NCBI GenBank assembly: GCA_018267545.1
Contig: JAFDYG010000502.1
Span: 1-64,000, forward strand
Reading direction: 5' to 3'
Length of the DNA: 64,000 bases
Source of the DNA: Bacteroidota bacterium
GTDB taxonomy: Bacteria > Bacteroidota > Bacteroidia > Chitinophagales > Chitinophagaceae
The position numbers and the translations under genes were made by a program. The notes beneath the pieces were generated by a model. That model made no database searches, was not told the origin of the DNA, and was given only the letters and a program-made list of their open reading frames with translations. Positions 55,722 through 64,000 of the stretch are shown here, piece after piece; within the stretch, counting starts at the first letter, position 1, and each line of letters opens with the position of its first letter.

Positions 55722-57272
55722 CTACCCCCTCCGCATCCCCGTCAAATACTTCTCCCGAATCACATCCTGCACCGGCACATGCCGTATCTTACTCTCCATC
55801 CAGGAGATAATATCCAAATACATAAACGCCCTCGTCTCGAACCTGTTCCCCTCATACTGCTTCAAATTCTCCACCAGCCGCTCGAACTCCGGCTTCAGCC
55901 GCACCGGCGTAAGATTGAACGACCGCCTCAAAAACCGAAAGATCTCCTCCTCGACCCCGCTCAAATTCCCCATCTTCGCCATAAACCGATACACCGACTT
56001 GATCAGATACTCCAGCAAATCGAAGTTCCCCAGCTCATAGTGCGCAATCAAATGCAACAGCCTCGAGTAACACTGCAGGTCCGTCCGCAGATCGACCTTC
56101 CAGTTGATGATCTTGTTCAAATAATCGATCGTCTTCTCATAGTCCCCGCTCCCAAAATACAAACAGGCGACCTTGTAGTAAAACACCAGGATTCGATGCC
56201 GGTCCAGGTAGATCCAATACTCCTTCAGCTTATCCTCGATATACGGCACCAGGTCCAGTCCCTCGCTAAAGGTCCCGTCGATAAAGTGCTGATTAAGTTT
56301 CGAGATATACAAATAGACAAAAGTCTGAATCCGGTTATTGACGTTATTCTTCACCAGGTCCGTCTTCGAAAATTCCTCGAATCGCGCCAACGTCTCCCTG
56401 AATTTCTCGTCGTTCAGCAAATCGAAATGCGCCCCCAGCAAATTATGCATGCCCTTGATGTAGTGAGAGGTCTCGACCGCCACCATAAACGGCTCCCGGT
56501 CGAAAAGATCGACCCAGCGCTGCGTATACCGGTAGTACATCAAAAAGTCCTGCCGGATAAAGGCATACCAGCTAAAGCTCTGGTACAGGTACAGCCGCTC
56601 ATAAAACCCCTGACAGTCGCTTACGTTCACCGGAAGCTGCTTTTCGAAAAACTCCCGCACCGCCTCCTCATCCGTTTCATTCCTCGCCACCCCATTTCGA
56701 ATATACCAGCTGTATAGCTCCAACGACAGATTGGACAGCTGGCTGATCATCCGCAGACGATCGTTCGCCGCATCCACCTCCCCCGCCAGCTGATCGGCCC
56801 GGTCCTGCATGCTCCGGGTAATATGCAGCGCCTCGATCGTCTTCTCGAAAAACAAGGCCTGTAAAAGATAGGTCGTCTGATTATGCGCCCTCGCCATCTC
56901 TTTAATCTTGTCCAGGGTCTTCAAACTCTGAAGATAAAGCCCCTTGTTATACAGGATCCGGGCATAATCCAATTGCTCATGTAATTGAATATCAACGTTT
57001 TCCTCCTGCCGGATGAGCCGCAGGCTGCTCAAAATCTCGCGGTAGAGGTGCGCCTTGGCGTTGGAAAGCTGCGCCTTGCGCAGATTTTTGTTTTTGTTTA
57101 ACAATTGCGCCTCATCATACTCCTCCATTTTGTCCAGAGCATCAAAGAGTTGGATGCTTTTTAGGTCCTCACTGGCTGAGTTACGCGTAATGTAAAGCTT
57201 AAAGTTCCGTTTTTCGGACTTTTCGAGGGATTTAATCAATTGAAACAGGGCGTCTGACGAACGGTTGGGCAT
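55722..57272 (-). CDS. Helical TPR-like protein of unknown function
   Basis: 516 residues, no signal peptide, almost entirely helical and rich in Leu, Tyr, Asp and Arg. Helical hairpins such as LDYARILYNKGLYLQSLKTL, LVFYYKVACLYFGSGDYEKTIDYL and LLHLIAHYELGNFDLLEYLIKSVYRF resemble degenerate tetratricopeptide repeats, so it is probably a cytoplasmic scaffold. The N-terminus (SSDALFQLIKSLEKSEKRNFKLY) is well conserved in my recollection of related hypothetical proteins in this group. Divergent from leuA, 186 bases apart. I do not know its role. Confidence 0.75.
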   Translation of the reverse strand: MPNRSSDALFQLIKSLEKSEKRNFKLYITRNSASEDLKSIQLFDALDKMEEYDEAQLLNKNKNLRKAQLSNAKAHLYREILSSLRLIRQEENVDIQLHEQLDYARILYNKGLYLQSLKTLDKIKEMARAHNQTTYLLQALFFEKTIEALHITRSMQDRADQLAGEVDAANDRLRMISQLSNLSLELYSWYIRNGVARNETDEEAVREFFEKQLPVNVSDCQGFYERLYLYQSFSWYAFIRQDFLMYYRYTQRWVDLFDREPFMVAVETSHYIKGMHNLLGAHFDLLNDEKFRETLARFEEFSKTDLVKNNVNNRIQTFVYLYISKLNQHFIDGTFSEGLDLVPYIEDKLKEYWIYLDRHRILVFYYKVACLYFGSGDYEKTIDYLNKIINWKVDLRTDLQCYSRLLHLIAHYELGNFDLLEYLIKSVYRFMAKMGNLSGVEEEIFRFLRRSFNLTPVRLKPEFERLVENLKQYEGNRFETRAFMYLDIISWMESKIRHVPVQDVIREKYLTGMRRG

Positions 57273-57458
57273 CGTAATTTAAAACTTTAAAATCCTTGCC
57301 AGCAGTGAGTTTCAGCTACTTTTACCCCCCCGTAAAGGGTGTAAAACCACCATAATTATGATTTCAATTCGATAAAAAACACAATTATTTTCGAAGGTAC
57401 GCACAAATCACTAACCATCACTAGCCCAGCTAATTTCGAACCTTTTTAAAATAAGCTA
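57273..57458 (+). promoter_or_regulatory. Divergent control region before leuA
   Basis: Contains a hairpin (57320-57346: TTTTAC...CCC, GGG...GTAAAA) with a run of seven C in the left arm, and TATTTTCG at 57386-57393, a 7-of-8 match to the -7 box with a poor -33. A five-codon frame MISIR precedes but carries no Leu codons, so the leu genes show no leader-peptide attenuator of the kind found before ilvE. Confidence 0.35.
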
Positions 57459-58628
57459 ATGTCCGACAAGAAAATCTTCATCTTCGACACCACTCTCCGC
57501 GACGGAGAACAGGTTCCCGGTTGCAAGCTAAACACAAGAGAAAAAATTGAGCTGGCCCTACAGCTCGAAGCCCTCGGCGTCGACATCATCGAAGCCGGCT
57601 TCCCCATCTCCAGCCCCGGCGACTTCCAGTCGGTGGAAGAGATCGCCAAAATCGTAAAAAACGCCACCGTCTGCGGCCTCAGCCGCGCCGTGCAAAAAGA
57701 TATCGAAGTCGCCGCCGCAGCGCTCAAGCCGGCACGACGCCCCCGTATACACACCGGCATCGGAACCTCCGATTCCCATATCAAGAATAAGTTCAATTCC
57801 ACCCGCGAAGAAATCATCGAACGCGCCGTCCAGGCCGTCAAATGGGCCAAAAATTTCGTCGATGACGTAGAGTTCTACGCAGAAGACGCCGGCCGCACCG
57901 ACAACGATTATCTCGCCCGTGTCGTCGAAGCCGTTATCCGCGCCGGAGCCACCGTCGTCAATATCCCCGATACTACCGGCTACTGCCTGCCCGACCAATA
58001 CGGTGAGAAGATCGCCTTCCTCATGAACCACGTTCCCAATATCGACAAGGCCATCCTCTCCTGCCACTGCCACAACGACCTCGGCCTGGCTACCGCCAAC
58101 TCCATCGCCGGCATCGTCAGCGGCGCCCGCCAGATCGAATGTACCATCAACGGCCTCGGCGAAAGAGCCGGCAACACTTCCCTCGAAGAAGTAGTGATGG
58201 TCATCAAGCAGCACAAGCAGCTCGGCTTCTACACCGATATCAACGCAAAAGAGCTGAACCCCATGAGCCGCCTCGTATCCGATACCATGCGCATGCCGGT
58301 TCAACCCAATAAGGCCATCGTCGGAGCCAACGCATTCTCCCACTCCTCCGGCATCCACCAGGACGGCTTCCTCAAGGACGCCTCCACCTACGAGATCATC
58401 AACCCCGAAGAGGTCGGCGCAGACGGCTCCAAAATCGTCCTGACCGCCCGCAGCGGCCGCAGCGCCCTCGCCTTCCGCCTGCAAAAGATCGGCTACTCCT
58501 ACAACCGTAACGACATCGATACGATTTATCAAACATTCCTGCAGGTCGCCGACACCAAAAAAGAAGTCATGGAAGAAGACCTGCACACCATCGCAAAAGC
58601 TTACAACGAAACTACCGTAACCGCATAA
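57459..58628 (+). CDS. leuA: 2-isopropylmalate synthase, short form without regulatory domain
   Basis: 389 residues. The HMGL-like TIM barrel is complete: [14 protein letters not shown] with the catalytic Arg/Asp/Glu, [12 protein letters not shown], and the metal-binding [30 protein letters not shown] closes it. The C-terminal LeuA dimer/allosteric domain of about 120 residues found in the E. coli enzyme is lacking, so leucine feedback through that domain is not expected. It condenses acetyl-CoA with 2-oxoisovalerate, the first committed step to leucine. It starts a tight cluster leuA-leuC-leuD-leuB. Confidence 0.9.
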
Positions 58629-60729: not shown

Positions 60730-61845
60730 ATGCAAAAGAACATCGTAGTTATTGAAGGTGACGGCATCGGGCCGGAAGTGACAAGACAAGCCATAAAGGT
60801 CTTGAACTCCGTTGCCGAGCAAGGCGGACATGAATTTACATACACCTATTGCCTGATGGGTGCAGACGCCATCGACAAGACAGGCAATCCCCTCCCCGAC
60901 GAAACCATCGAAGCCGCCCTCAACAGCGACGCTATCCTGTTCGGCGCCATCGGTCATCCCAAATACGACAACGACCCTACCGCAAAGGTCCGGCCCGAAC
61001 AAGGCCTGCTCAAGCTGCGGAAGTCCCTGCAATTGTTTGCCAACATCCGCCCGGTGACTACCTACCCGGCGCTGCAGCACCTGTCTCCCCTGAAAGCCAA
61101 GATCCTCGAAGAAGTAGACTTCGTAATCTATCGCGAGCTCACAGGCGGTATTTATTTCGGTAAAAAGGAAGTCGACGCCGAAGCGACTAAAGCATCCGAC
61201 GACTGTACCTATACCCGCGAAGAGATCGAACGCATTTCACACCTCGCCTTCAAACAGGCGCAGCAACGCAGAAAGAAGCTCACCCTCGTCGACAAGGCCA
61301 ACGTTCTCGAAACCTCCCGTCTGTGGAGAAAGGTCGTACAAGAGATCGCGCCCCAATACGCCGACGTAAAGGTCGACTTCCTGTTCGTCGACAACGCAGC
61401 CATGCAGATCATCCTCAACCCCAAACAATTCGACGTCGTCCTGACGGAAAATATGTTCGGCGATATCATCTCCGACGAAGCCAGCGTAATCAGCGGCTCC
61501 CTGGGCCTGCTCCCCTCAGCCTCCATCGGCAAAGGCGCAGCCCTGTTCGAACCCATCCACGGTTCCTACCCCCAGGCCGCCGGTAAAGACATCGCCAACC
61601 CCCTCGGCAGCATCCTCTCTGCAGCCATGCTCCTCGACCACTTCGGCCTCCACGCCGAAGCAAACAAGGTCCGCGAAGCAGCCAACTGGACACTGCAAAA
61701 TGGATTCGTTACAAAAGACATCGACCCTATCAATTTCTATTTCACCTCCACCATCGGCGAGCTGATCAGCGACTACGTTGGCGGAAAAATCCCCGGCGAT
61801 ATCCATAAAGGAAATATCGAGCTGAGGAAATCGACTATTATTTAA
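60730..61845 (+). CDS. leuB: 3-isopropylmalate dehydrogenase
   Basis: 371 residues. Isocitrate/isopropylmalate dehydrogenase family: VIEGDGIGPEVTRQA, the substrate loop LLKLRKSLQLFANIRPV, VIYRELTGGIYFG, VLTENMFGDIISDEASVISGSLGLLPSAS in pieces, and FEPIHGSYPQAAGKDIANPLG. It oxidises and decarboxylates 3-isopropylmalate to 2-oxoisocaproate, the leucine precursor that IlvE then aminates. It is the last gene before the ilv leader; transcripts reaching 62043 from here would meet the same terminator. Confidence 0.96.
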   Translation: MQKNIVVIEGDGIGPEVTRQAIKVLNSVAEQGGHEFTYTYCLMGADAIDKTGNPLPDETIEAALNSDAILFGAIGHPKYDNDPTAKVRPEQGLLKLRKSLQLFANIRPVTTYPALQHLSPLKAKILEEVDFVIYRELTGGIYFGKKEVDAEATKASDDCTYTREEIERISHLAFKQAQQRRKKLTLVDKANVLETSRLWRKVVQEIAPQYADVKVDFLFVDNAAMQIILNPKQFDVVLTENMFGDIISDEASVISGSLGLLPSASIGKGAALFEPIHGSYPQAAGKDIANPLGSILSAAMLLDHFGLHAEANKVREAANWTLQNGFVTKDIDPINFYFTSTIGELISDYVGGKIPGDIHKGNIELRKSTII

Positions 61846-61863
61846 ATAGTCACAAAAAGTTCT

Positions 61864-61893
61864 TTGTTTATTCAATTGGCGGAAGTATATTCG
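61864..61893 (+). promoter_or_regulatory. Promoter of the ilv leader
   Basis: TTG at 61864-61866 (TTTG from 61863), exactly 19 bases, then TATATTCG at 61886-61893, matching TAnnTTTG in 7 of 8 positions. Transcription would begin around 61899-61901, roughly 14 bases before the leader start codon. Confidence 0.65.
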
Positions 61894-61913
61894 TAGCACG
61901 AATAACATCCTTC

Positions 61914-62018
61914 ATGGAATTACGCAGTTTAAATAAGATTACCAAGCGCTTCGCAGCCGCAATAATTATTGTGGTGGTGGTGATTATTATTCCTGCATTC
62001 CAGGGAGGAGGGTGGTAA
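61914..62018 (+). CDS. Branched-chain amino-acid leader peptide
   Basis: 34 codons and a TAA stop. After a basic start (MELRSLNKITKRFAAA) the peptide has IIIVVVVIII in codons 17-26, that is, three Ile, four Val and three Ile codons without a break, then PAFQGGGW. Such a run is the mark of attenuator leader peptides of ilv operons, where scarce charged Ile- or Val-tRNA stalls the ribosome. The end of the gene (Gly-Gly-Gly codons, 62003-62012) is also half of an antiterminator pairing. A Bacteroidota promoter lies at a suitable distance, a terminator follows, and ilvE starts next. As an alternative, the peptide could be a small membrane protein, since the Ile/Val run is hydrophobic. Confidence 0.8.
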   Translation: MELRSLNKITKRFAAAIIIVVVVIIIPAFQGGGW

Positions 62019-62078
62019 ATAAACAATAACAAACAAAATACCAGCGGCCCGCCTCCCAAAGGCGGGCCGCTTTTTTTT
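62003..62078 (+). terminator. Attenuator terminator with competing antiterminator of ilvED
   Basis: Terminator: AGCGGCCCGCCT (62043-62054) and its exact complement AGGCGGGCCGCT (62060-62071) form a 12-bp stem with a five-base loop, followed by an eight-T tract to 62078. Competing structure: GGGAGGAGGG at 62003-62012, inside the last codons of the leader peptide, can pair with CCCGCCTCCC at 62048-62057, nine of ten pairs with one A-G mismatch, which disrupts the 5' arm of the terminator. A ribosome that reaches the stop codon at 62016 would cover 62003-62012 and favour termination; one stalled at the first Ile/Val codons leaves it free and favours read-through to ilvE. Confidence 0.8.
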
Positions 62079-62090
62079 CAACAACAACGT

Positions 62091-62987
62091 ATGGCATCCT
62101 ATTACAACGAGAACACTGTTCTCTGGCTCGACGGAAAAATCCAAAAGGCATCGGAAACAAAAACCGATCTCTATGGTCAATCCCTGCACTACGGCTACGC
62201 CGTATTCGAAGGCATCCGCTCCTACCGCACCGCGTCCGGAGAAACGAAAATCTTCAAGCCCGTCGAACACTACGACCGCCTGAAGCGCTCCGCCGAAGCC
62301 CTCAACATGCCATATAATTATACGACCCAACAGCTCATCGAAGCAACCTACGAGATTCTCAAAAAGAACAACCTCCAGGATGCCTATATCCGCCCCGTCG
62401 TTTACGGCCCGGCCAACATGAGCTTCAACCCCAACACAGAATCCTTCACCGTCATCCAGGCCTGGGAAATGGCGCCCTTCCTCGGCGAGAAGCTGCTGAA
62501 AGTAATGACCTCCTCCTTCCAACGCCCCAATCCAAAGGGCTTCAAGATCGAGGCAAAAGCATCCGGCCATTACGTCAACTCCATCCTCGCCAGCCAGGAA
62601 GCCAAAGGCAAAGGCTTCGACGAAGCCCTGCTCACCGACATGAACGGCTTTATCGCCGAAGCCCCCGGAGCCAACATGTTCTTCGAAAAAGACGGCAGGC
62701 TCTTTACCCCCGCTACCGGCAACATCCTGCCCGGCATCACCCGCGCCACCGTGCTGGAGATCTGCGCCGAGCTGGACATCCCCGTCGAAGAAGGACAATA
62801 TACCCCCAACCAATTAAAACAAGCCGACTCCGCCTTCTTCTGCGGCACCGCCGCCGAGGTTATCGGATGGAGCTCGATCGACGACTATACATTCCCAAAA
62901 CCATGGGCGTCTACCCTCGGCCGTAAGGTCCAGGAAGCCTACATGGACAAGGTCAAAGAGAAACAAAATCAACTGGAAACCATCTAA
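62091..62987 (+). CDS. ilvE: Branched-chain amino-acid aminotransferase
   Basis: 298 residues, fold type IV PLP enzyme. [14 protein letters not shown] near the N-terminus, [10 protein letters not shown], and the PLP-binding Lys156 in [33 protein letters not shown] and [15 protein letters not shown] form the cofactor-phosphate and substrate pocket. It makes Leu, Ile and Val from their 2-oxo acids. Its start is 13 bases after the end of the attenuator terminator. ilvD follows 5 bases later, so both are under attenuator control. Confidence 0.96.
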
Positions 62988-62992
62988 TAAAA

Positions 62993-64000
62993 ATGGAACT
63001 GAACAAATACAGCAAGATTCTTACACAGGACGAAACACAACCCGGCGCTCAAGCCATGTTGTACGGCATTGGACTCACAGACGCAGACCTCGCAAAAGCA
63101 CAGGTAGGCATCGCCAGCATGGGCTACGACGGCAACACCTGTAATATGCACCTCAACGAGCTCGCCCAGGTCGTGAAGAAAAGTGTCTGGGACAAAGAGC
63201 TGGTAGGACTCATCTTCAACACCATCGGCGTCAGCGACGGCATGGCCAACGGAACCGACGGCATGCGCTATTCCCTCGTCAGCCGCGACGTCATCGCAGA
63301 CTCTATCGAAGCTATCACCGGCGCACAATACTATGATGCGCTCATTACTCTCCCGGGTTGCGACAAAAATATGCCGGGCTGCCTAATCGCCATGGGCCGC
63401 CTCAACCGCCCCTCCCTCATGGTATACGGAGGCACCATCGCCCCCGGTCACTACAAAGGACAAGACCTCAATATCGTCTCCGCCTTCGAAGCACTCGGAC
63501 AAAAGATAGCCGGCAAGCTCGACGACGCCGACTTCAAAGGCATCGTCCGCCATACCTGCCCCGGCGCAGGCGCCTGCGGCGGTATGTACACGGCTAACAC
63601 CATGGCCGCCGGCATCGAAGCCCTCGGCATGAGCCTCCCCTACAGCTCCTCCAACCCCGCCGTCAGCAAGGAGAAACAAGACGAATGCATCGAAGCAGGT
63701 GCAGCCATCCGCCTCCTGCTGGAAAAAGATATCAAGCCCAGGGACATCATGACCCGCAAGGCTTTCGAAAACGCCATCATCACCATCATGGTCCTCGGCG
63801 GCAGCACCAACGCAGTGCTCCACTTCATCGCCATCGCCAAGAGCGTAGGCGTTCCTCTCACACAGGACGACTTCCAGGCCATCAGCGACCGCATCCCGGT
63901 TCTCGCCGACTTCAAGCCCAGCGGTAAATATCTCATGCAGGACCTGCACGAGCACGGCGGCATCCCCGCAGTCATGAAGTACCTGCTCGACAAAGGACTG
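62993..64000 (+). CDS. ilvD: Dihydroxy-acid dehydratase, 3' end outside window
   Basis: Starts at ATG 62993 and stays open to the last base: 336 codons of about 560. IlvD/Edd family motifs: [40 protein letters not shown] in pieces (first cluster Cys and metal-binding Asp-Lys), [19 protein letters not shown] (second Cys), and [16 protein letters not shown]. It dehydrates dihydroxy-isovalerate and -methylvalerate for Val and Ile, and its 2-oxoisovalerate feeds LeuA. Co-transcribed with ilvE; ilvB, ilvN and ilvC would be expected beyond the window edge. Confidence 0.95.

Follow-up and report, generated by a model that had tools for sequence, protein, structure and literature searches.

The leader-peptide attenuators of enterobacterial ilvB, ilvGMEDA, thr and trp are textbook systems. 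In Bacteroidetes, the Bacteroid-trp RNA is presumably a Trp leader attenuator. That RNA (RF01692) is listed as a cis-regulatory candidate of Bacteroidetes (PMC2864571, Table 1), and a study of Flavobacterium psychrophilum reports strong clues for leader-peptide attenuation before amino-acid operons (PMC9723704). The F. psychrophilum candidates belong to the same control class as the element described here, but neither ilv nor isoleucine appears in the main text of that paper, and the passages on these clues give no strand layout (PMC9723704). Short open reading frames (ORFs) reminiscent of leader peptides are described for Bacteroides thetaiotaomicron (PMC7366714). The ilvBNC leader and the ilvB-II motif of Corynebacterium likewise provide a leader ORF or attenuator for ilv genes, but in another organism and, by the title, with a three-hairpin model (PMC10272879 and PMC11857589). 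An ilv leader in Bacteroidota would place a textbook amino-acid switch in a phylum for which little seems to have been described on the control of amino-acid operons.

We analysed a 64,000-nt stretch of DNA from a member of the Chitinophagaceae, here called the window. No Rfam family reached its gathering score in it, and the same was true of six loci (L231, L232, L292, L108, L134 and L144). The best leader match of the window was Thr_leader, with 23.1 of 55 bits, and Thr_leader, His_leader, Trp_leader, Phe_leader, Leu_leader and Bacteroid-trp all stayed below the gathering cut-off. A T-box gave no gathering match and was not among the 15 window matches at E<=5. The element thus differs from Bacteroid-trp both in its amino acids (Trp there, Ile/Val here) and in the lack of a window match to that family. 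Because a description of an ilv attenuator of this group, of its strands or of a strand 1 at the start codon was not found among the literature matches listed, we regard the class of attenuation as known and this layout as new; Lopatovskaya and others (2010) could overlap with it.

An Ile/Val leader and terminator between leuB and ilvE

The window ends in a branched-chain amino-acid cluster of leuA, leuC, leuD, leuB, ilvE and ilvD (Pfam matches HMGL-like, Aconitase, Aconitase_C, Iso_dh, Aminotran_4 and ILVD_EDD_N), the names being inferred from Pfam families and gene order. Beyond the window the contig continues with ilvB, a methyltransferase gene, ilvN, ilvC and ilvA in that order. The methyltransferase gene lies between ilvB and ilvN (L293 3544-4425; contig C447, about 66443-67324), and its ORF as called overlaps the end of ilvB. 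Puia dinghuensis is the nearest record with a species name, with 82% identity in ilvE. Inspection of 57180-57480 by eye revealed no attenuator before leuA. The features of the locus are given below.

60730-61845, + strand: leuB, last gene of the upstream leuACDB (Pfam Iso_dh)
61863-61866, + strand: TTTG, promoter element of the -33 type (sequence)
61886-61893, + strand: TATATTCG, promoter element of the -7 type (sequence)
61906-61913, + strand: candidate strand 1 (CAUCCUUC), complementary to strand 2 and abutting the leader start codon (duplex, folds)
61914-62018, + strand: leader peptide gene, 34 codons and stop (sequence, conservation)
61962-61991, + strand: control codons, codons 17-26, ten successive Ile/Val (sequence)
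62003-62017, + strand: strand 2, antiterminator strand at the end of the leader gene (alignment, duplex and spacing tests)
62039-62057, + strand: strand 3, 3' strand of the antiterminator, sharing bases with the terminator's 5' arm and loop (alignment, duplex tests)
62043-62071, + strand: terminator hairpin, strands 3 and 4 (scan, covariation, consensus fold)
62071-62078, + strand: T tract of eight T, the first inside the stem (sequence)
62091-62987, + strand: ilvE, branched-chain aminotransferase, first controlled gene (Pfam Aminotran_4)
62993-64000, + strand: ilvD, dihydroxy-acid dehydratase, extending beyond the window end (Pfam ILVD_EDD_N)

The initial annotation had proposed that this gap holds a promoter, a 34-codon peptide gene with ten Ile/Val codons in a row, a 12-bp terminator with an eight-T tract before ilvE, and an antiterminator, and we found all four at their places. 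The promoter-like pair TTTG-N19-TATATTCG (61863-61866, 19 nt, 61886-61893) is situated between leuB and the leader gene. A strict pattern, TTTG-N17-22-TAnnTTyG at most 70 nt upstream of the leader start, was present in only 43 of 87 relatives, and the promoter was therefore taken as a supporting and not a decisive part. The leader gene encodes MELRSLNKITKRFAAAIIIVVVVIIIPAFQGGGW, and its Ile/Val stretch is the sole run of at least seven such codons in the window (six frames, 64 kb); no such run occurred in 30 first-order resamples of the window.

The terminator stem joins 62043-62054 to 62060-62071 with 12 pairs and a loop of 5, and 12 nt lie between the last T and the ilvE ATG (62091). A terminator scan of the window was as such uninformative, with 11 found against 11.2 expected; the leader terminator had the most pairs of all hairpins in that scan. 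When the leader RNA was folded, segment 61930-62085 gave z = -3.85 and none of 200 shuffles was equally stable. The antiterminator joins 62003-62012 to 62048-62057 with 9 of 10 pairs, again as annotated, and extra pairing of 62013-62017 with 62039-62043 (UGGUA/UACCA) is possible and was seen in a fold. The Shine-Dalgarno core GGAGG and the anti-Shine-Dalgarno core CCUCC lie within 62003-62012 and 62048-62057.

In common with enterobacterial attenuators, the locus has control codons matched to the operon, an intrinsic terminator before the first gene and an antiterminator that excludes it. Unlike in those systems, the antiterminator strand occupies the far end of the leader gene, about 12 nt past the control run, a protector strand in the coding region was not found, and the switch strands are GGAGG and CCUCC. 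A further difference is that the family probably has a strand before the start codon able to sequester the antiterminator.

Conservation of the leader within and beyond the family

We searched for the ilvE protein in 33 genus-level and 195 family-level genomes, and 91 upstream regions were read (24 and 27 loci and 40 fetched stretches). A leader was scored where an ORF had 7 or more Ile/Val among 12 residues and was followed by a terminator. By this measure, an ORF rich in the codons of its operon's amino acids, its translation being predicted, was found in 87 of the 91 regions with an intrinsic terminator between it and the first gene, and four regions (L074, L076, L090 and L095) had no leader. 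The fragmentary genomes G074 and G078 were outside the 91 regions, and a covariance model later matched both. The run is conserved with changing codons, as the annotation would have it: within the densest 12 residues, Ile was encoded by ATT 382, ATA 47 and ATC 35 times, and Val by GTG 202, GTC 88, GTA 33 and GTT 28 times. The genome of L095 carries a matching leader elsewhere (L130); the ORF that follows this leader has 103 aa and no Pfam match at 1e-8.

Compensatory changes were also found in the terminator stem, where 8 of 12 pairs had changed on both sides in the alignment of 87 (104 cells; 0 of 500 shuffles). The consensus fold of the related leaders consisted of the terminator only.

In a set of named genomes that partly overlaps the 91 regions, 33 of 45 loci passed the leader and terminator test and 12 failed. 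Those passing included Puia dinghuensis, Terrimonas ginsenosidimutans, Paraflavitalea, Limnovirga soli, Flavihumibacter and Ginsengibacter hankyongi, and, outside the family by name, Pedobacter segetis and a Microscilla record. An ilvE without a leader was found in three Sediminibacterium records (L183, L184 and L201) and in three MAG loci similar to them (L187, L188 and L200), which is probably a case of leader loss.

The covariance model matched 121 of 195 family genomes in 67 of 101 genera, the weakest matches, near E 0.01, being doubtful. In the phylum it matched 38 of 296 genomes, of which 8 belong to the family, and 23 loci were read from the 30 genomes outside it. By Pfam, 15 of these 23 precede amino-acid genes, namely a class IV aminotransferase taken as ilvE (6), ilvD (1), ilvN (1), ilvA (3), aspartokinase with a Thr/Ile leader (2) and hisG with a His leader (2). 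Two further loci (L139 and L143) were ilvN-like by eye and had no Pfam match at 1e-8, and the matches at L136, L145, L150, L153, L154 and L155 were rejected, as they look like chance. Five loci of the same class (L142, L143, L144, L147 and L152) have Ile-rich leaders before ilvN, ilvN-like or ilvA genes; immediately past the leader stop codon lies a strand that contains GAGG or GGG. The comparative support spans 40 genera within a single family as well as other families of its class, and covers ilv, phe and his genes; judged from these sequences, Ile/Val leader attenuation likely works widely in Bacteroidota.

Matched pairing of the antiterminator strands

In the alignment of 87 leaders, the antiterminator core was paired in 90.6% of cells, compared with 50.3-69.9% in slid versions. 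Changes on both sides occurred in 6 cells of 2 pairs (0 of 500 shuffles), against 3 to 7 cells in the slid versions, and two of five covariation measures were reached by 148 and 114 of 500 shuffles. Since the core is too invariant, covariation shows little here. The matching of strands within species was more telling. In the family, the duplex of strand 2 with strand 3 had a mean of -19.5 kcal/mol for native partners against -17.5 kcal/mol when partners were permuted between species, a difference reached in 0 of 10,000 permutations, which upholds the annotated pairing of strand 2 with the terminator arm. Relatedness of species was not modelled in the permutation tests, so all such counts are rough.

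The same result was obtained with 24 leaders from outside the family (native -13.8 against -9.7 kcal/mol; 0 of 10,000), the native pair being better in 22 of 24. Their strands differ in sequence (GCAUCGGGGCG, GUGAGAAUGGU, GCGGGUGAGAGG and others), and when their strand 2 was set against the terminator arms of the family, the native arm was better in 19 of 24. The fit was less specific in some: 12-15 of 23 foreign arms fitted as well as the own arm in L208, L210 and L213, and 8-9 of 23 in L190, L192 and L207. The test used 24 of 30 regions. Left out were L209, L215 and L218 (terminator absent), L205 and L221 (I/V leader absent) and L214 (terminator misplaced), while L208, L210, L211, L213, L216, L219 and L220 were kept with weak leaders of 4-5 Ile/Val in 10; L203, from a family genome, was excluded.

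A ribosome with its A site on the last control codon would cover about 12 nt ahead. Of 86 leaders examined (L056 excluded), 77 hold GGAGG behind the Ile/Val(/Leu) run, and in 69 of these it starts exactly 12 nt past the end of the run. In three leaders GGAGGUGG is read in another frame and does not encode Gly-Gly-Gly (REVV in L056, TEVV in L167 from a Niastella MAG and QEVV in L176 from Flavihumibacter petaseus); therefore it is the RNA that is kept and not the peptide tail. In L049 the leader stop codon stands at the front of the strand 2 element. The parts of the leader, their conservation and the matched pairing of strands 2-3 and 3-4 are thus seen in the sequences themselves.

Constrained folds and the predicted switch

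The effect of a ribosome was modelled by folding the window RNA with the ribosome footprint blocked, at successive RNA ends. With a ribosome at codon 31 or at the stop codon, no pairs of strands 2 and 3 (2:3) formed and the terminator did. With the ribosome at codons 17, 20, 23 or 26, 12 pairs of 2:3 were present at RNA ends 62057 and 62062. These constrained folds agree with the annotated geometry, in which a stalled ribosome would leave strand 2 free and one at the stop codon would cover it; in silico, the antiterminator is exposed or covered by the ribosome and excludes the terminator. At RNA end 62066 with the 5' part free, pairing of strands 1 and 2 (1:2) and of 3 and 4 (3:4) returned for stalls at codons 17, 20 and 23, and 2:3 held for the stall at codon 26 only. 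When a second ribosome was placed on the start codon, or the 5' part was blocked, 2:3 held at RNA end 62066 also.

The terminator won in all folds to 62071 or 62078, with or without a stalled ribosome, and the switch must therefore be kinetic. Without a ribosome, the equilibrium fold changed from 1:2 (RNA ends 62020-62040) to 2:3 (62057 and 62062) and then to 1:2 with the terminator (62066 onwards), so the default state depends on timing.

From the folds and the comparative data, the ilvE locus is very probably a leader-peptide attenuator with strands 2-4, working by ribosome-mediated attenuation. Its likely function is to turn on transcription of ilvE-ilvD-ilvB-ilvN-ilvC-ilvA when charged Ile or Val tRNA is short. 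The start site, the stalling, its timing and the amino-acid response can be pictured as follows. The transcript would start near 61899, a few nucleotides ahead of the leader gene, with an assumed 5' untranslated region of about 15 nt. With ample Ile and Val, translation would run to the stop codon, where the ribosome would cover strand 2 (62003-62017); strand 3 would then pair with strand 4, and transcription would end at the T tract. A ribosome stalled in codons 17-26 would have its front edge short of strand 2, which lies about 12 nt past the last control codon, and the free strand 2 could catch the emerging strand 3 before the second arm of the terminator is made, so that the polymerase would read on. 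If the leader carries no ribosome, strands 1 and 2 would pair and leave it closed, a state predicted to favour termination, and a second ribosome on the start codon would remove this brake. The layout makes clean predictions that can be tested, the 12-nt spacing and a third strand that covers the initiation site, and it is relevant to the question of how closely polymerase and ribosome are coupled in Bacteroidota.

A candidate third strand before the leader start codon

The annotation had called the switch a simple two-state design. A search for a protector hairpin within the coding region gave none, but a strand before the start codon fits strand 2, and the two-state description is probably incomplete for the family. 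In the window, strand 1 (61906-61913) pairs with 62007-62014 in the duplex, the positions being worked out by hand; in the unconstrained RNA to 62066, 61908-61913 lay on 62004-62009 and the start region 61915-61920 on 61997-62002, together with the terminator. The 16 nt upstream of the leader start are CU-rich in the 87 family loci, with 4 to 5% G in the last ten. Furthermore, these 16 nt matched strand 2 within species, both in all 87 loci (native -8.65 against permuted -7.49; 0 of 5,000) and in one locus per genus (40 loci; -8.43 against -7.35; 0 of 5,000). The genus-level test takes one locus per genus code and omits L009, L034 and L046, whose start codon is uncertain.

Control regions of the same 40 loci gave 1,792 (promoter region), 888 (codons 2-6) and 1,132 (codons 7-12) of 5,000, and the ilvE pre-start gave 102 of 5,000; matched pairing with strand 2 was thus not found for codons 2-6 or 7-12 across the 40 genera. 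Against shuffles of itself, strand 1 showed a small gain (z -0.74; 30 of 40), close to that of codons 7-12 (z -0.68; 26 of 40). In the ensemble of the whole leader, strands 1 and 2 shared 4.06 expected pairs against 1.63 with a shuffled pre-start, and 65 of 83 loci were above control. An earlier, wider search had placed the strongest upstream pairing signal at the leader start. The ensemble and protector tests covered 83 of the 87 loci (82 in the swap test), and the long-range pairing tests 84, without L049, L056 and L062. Where strand 2 deviates, strand 1 still matches it by eye (CUCAUCC/GGAUGAG in L063, CACUUCA/UGAGGUG in L049 and CUUCC/GGAAG in L082).

Bacteroidia initiation shows adenines at -3, -6, -12 and -13 (PMC9976891). 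The leader pre-start tract departs from this adenine context, and in the same loci A makes up 47% of the sequence before ilvE against 27% before the leader. The strand 1 signal was absent in ilv leaders from outside the family (3,029 of 5,000 in 21 loci with 59% A before the start; L195, without upstream sequence, was not included), in His leaders (1,289 of 5,000) and in Phe leaders (2,599 of 5,000). No trp-type protector strand was found close to the control codons in the coding region, and a protector hairpin between strand 2 and the codons that follow the control run was rejected (mean z -0.15; native lower than swapped in 31 of 82). Taken together, pairing of strand 1 with strand 2 in the ilv leaders of the family is likely rather than proven.

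We put forward, as a tentative reading with somewhat less than even prospects, an attenuator with three strands and two ribosomes, in which the strands resemble Shine-Dalgarno and anti-Shine-Dalgarno sequences. The CCUUC/CCUCC strands at the leader start and in the terminator would compete for GGAGG at the leader end, and while one ribosome is stalled on the Ile/Val codons, a second one queued on the start codon would mask strand 1. If this is true, the switch would respond to starvation as well as to initiation at the leader. Shine-Dalgarno sequences are ignored by the ribosomes of Bacteroidia (PMC9976891), and GGAGG would therefore be usable as pure structure. This suggests a role for GGAGG in a class where it is not read by ribosomes (same source).

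Alternative readings of the locus

The hairpin stands behind leuB and is a strong terminator by itself, and the leader peptide is hydrophobic; it could thus be a fixed terminator of leuACDB accompanied by a decoy ORF, rich in I/V by chance or as a small membrane peptide. We consider this highly improbable. In relatives the leader-terminator unit also precedes ilvD, ilvN and ilvA genes, Phe/Tyr and His versions precede pheA and hisG, and a promoter-like pair separates leuB from the leader. Strand 2 is, moreover, matched to the terminator arm within species, and the peptide tail changes frame while the RNA stays. A structured leader ahead of amino-acid genes could also be a ligand-binding riboswitch or a T-box with an incidental short ORF. 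The chance of this is slighter still, as no Rfam family reached gathering score in the window or the six related loci, the consensus fold is the terminator only, the ORF is conserved with its Ile/Val content, and for ilv, phe, his and thr alike the leader residues correspond to the pathway.

It is harder to set aside a two-state attenuator in which strand 1 is nonfunctional, the CU-rich tract being an initiation feature and its fit to GGAGG incidental. The strand 1 signal is absent in out-of-family ilv, His and Phe leaders and its gain over own shuffles is modest, and the short-range protector hairpin is unsupported as well, all of which speak for this view. We nevertheless hold it to be rather unlikely, because tract and strand 2 are matched in 40 genera and the match persists, by eye, in leaders with an altered GGAGG or an altered frame of it (L063, L049 and L082). 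The tract also departs from the -3 and -6 adenines of Bacteroidia initiation (PMC9976891), whereas in these loci the sequence before ilvE is rich in A (47% against 27%).

Phe/Tyr, His and Thr leaders

Leaders with other amino acids were scored at thresholds of 3 His or 4 Phe/Tyr in 10 residues. A Phe/Tyr leader with a terminator preceded pheA in all 29 family loci (29 genomes with PDT, 29 loci read), and a His leader with a terminator preceded hisG in 26 of 30 (32 genomes with hisG, 30 loci read). Both types are present in the genome of the window. The leader MITSKAYRFFGFYFYFYFTSRPGLLLLNK and its terminator lie before the prephenate dehydratase gene, pheA (L231, G000:C458, reverse complement 1302-1392), and the leader MKQNRQHHHHHFYLPRG and its terminator before hisG (L232, G000:C134, 1213-1267). 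The pre-start of L231 fits strand 2 (-14.1 kcal/mol), unlike that of most Phe leaders. In the His leaders, strands 2-3 are largely conserved, and the swap test gave 392 of 5,000, or 45 of 5,000 with another cut. Their -44 to -24 region, which includes promoter sequence, fitted strand 2 better natively than when permuted (34 of 5,000).

The same genome holds a candidate Thr/Ile leader, the GTG-started ORF VINRTHDTISPTACATAAQITTIITITTR (L292, G000:C189:13500-15000, reverse complement 748-838), at which no terminator was noticed. The gene behind it (thrA) has an aspartokinase-like protein start and a homoserine dehydrogenase domain, an arrangement that recalls thrL. Outside the family, Thr/Ile-rich leaders with terminators stand before an aspartokinase gene in L138 and L148.
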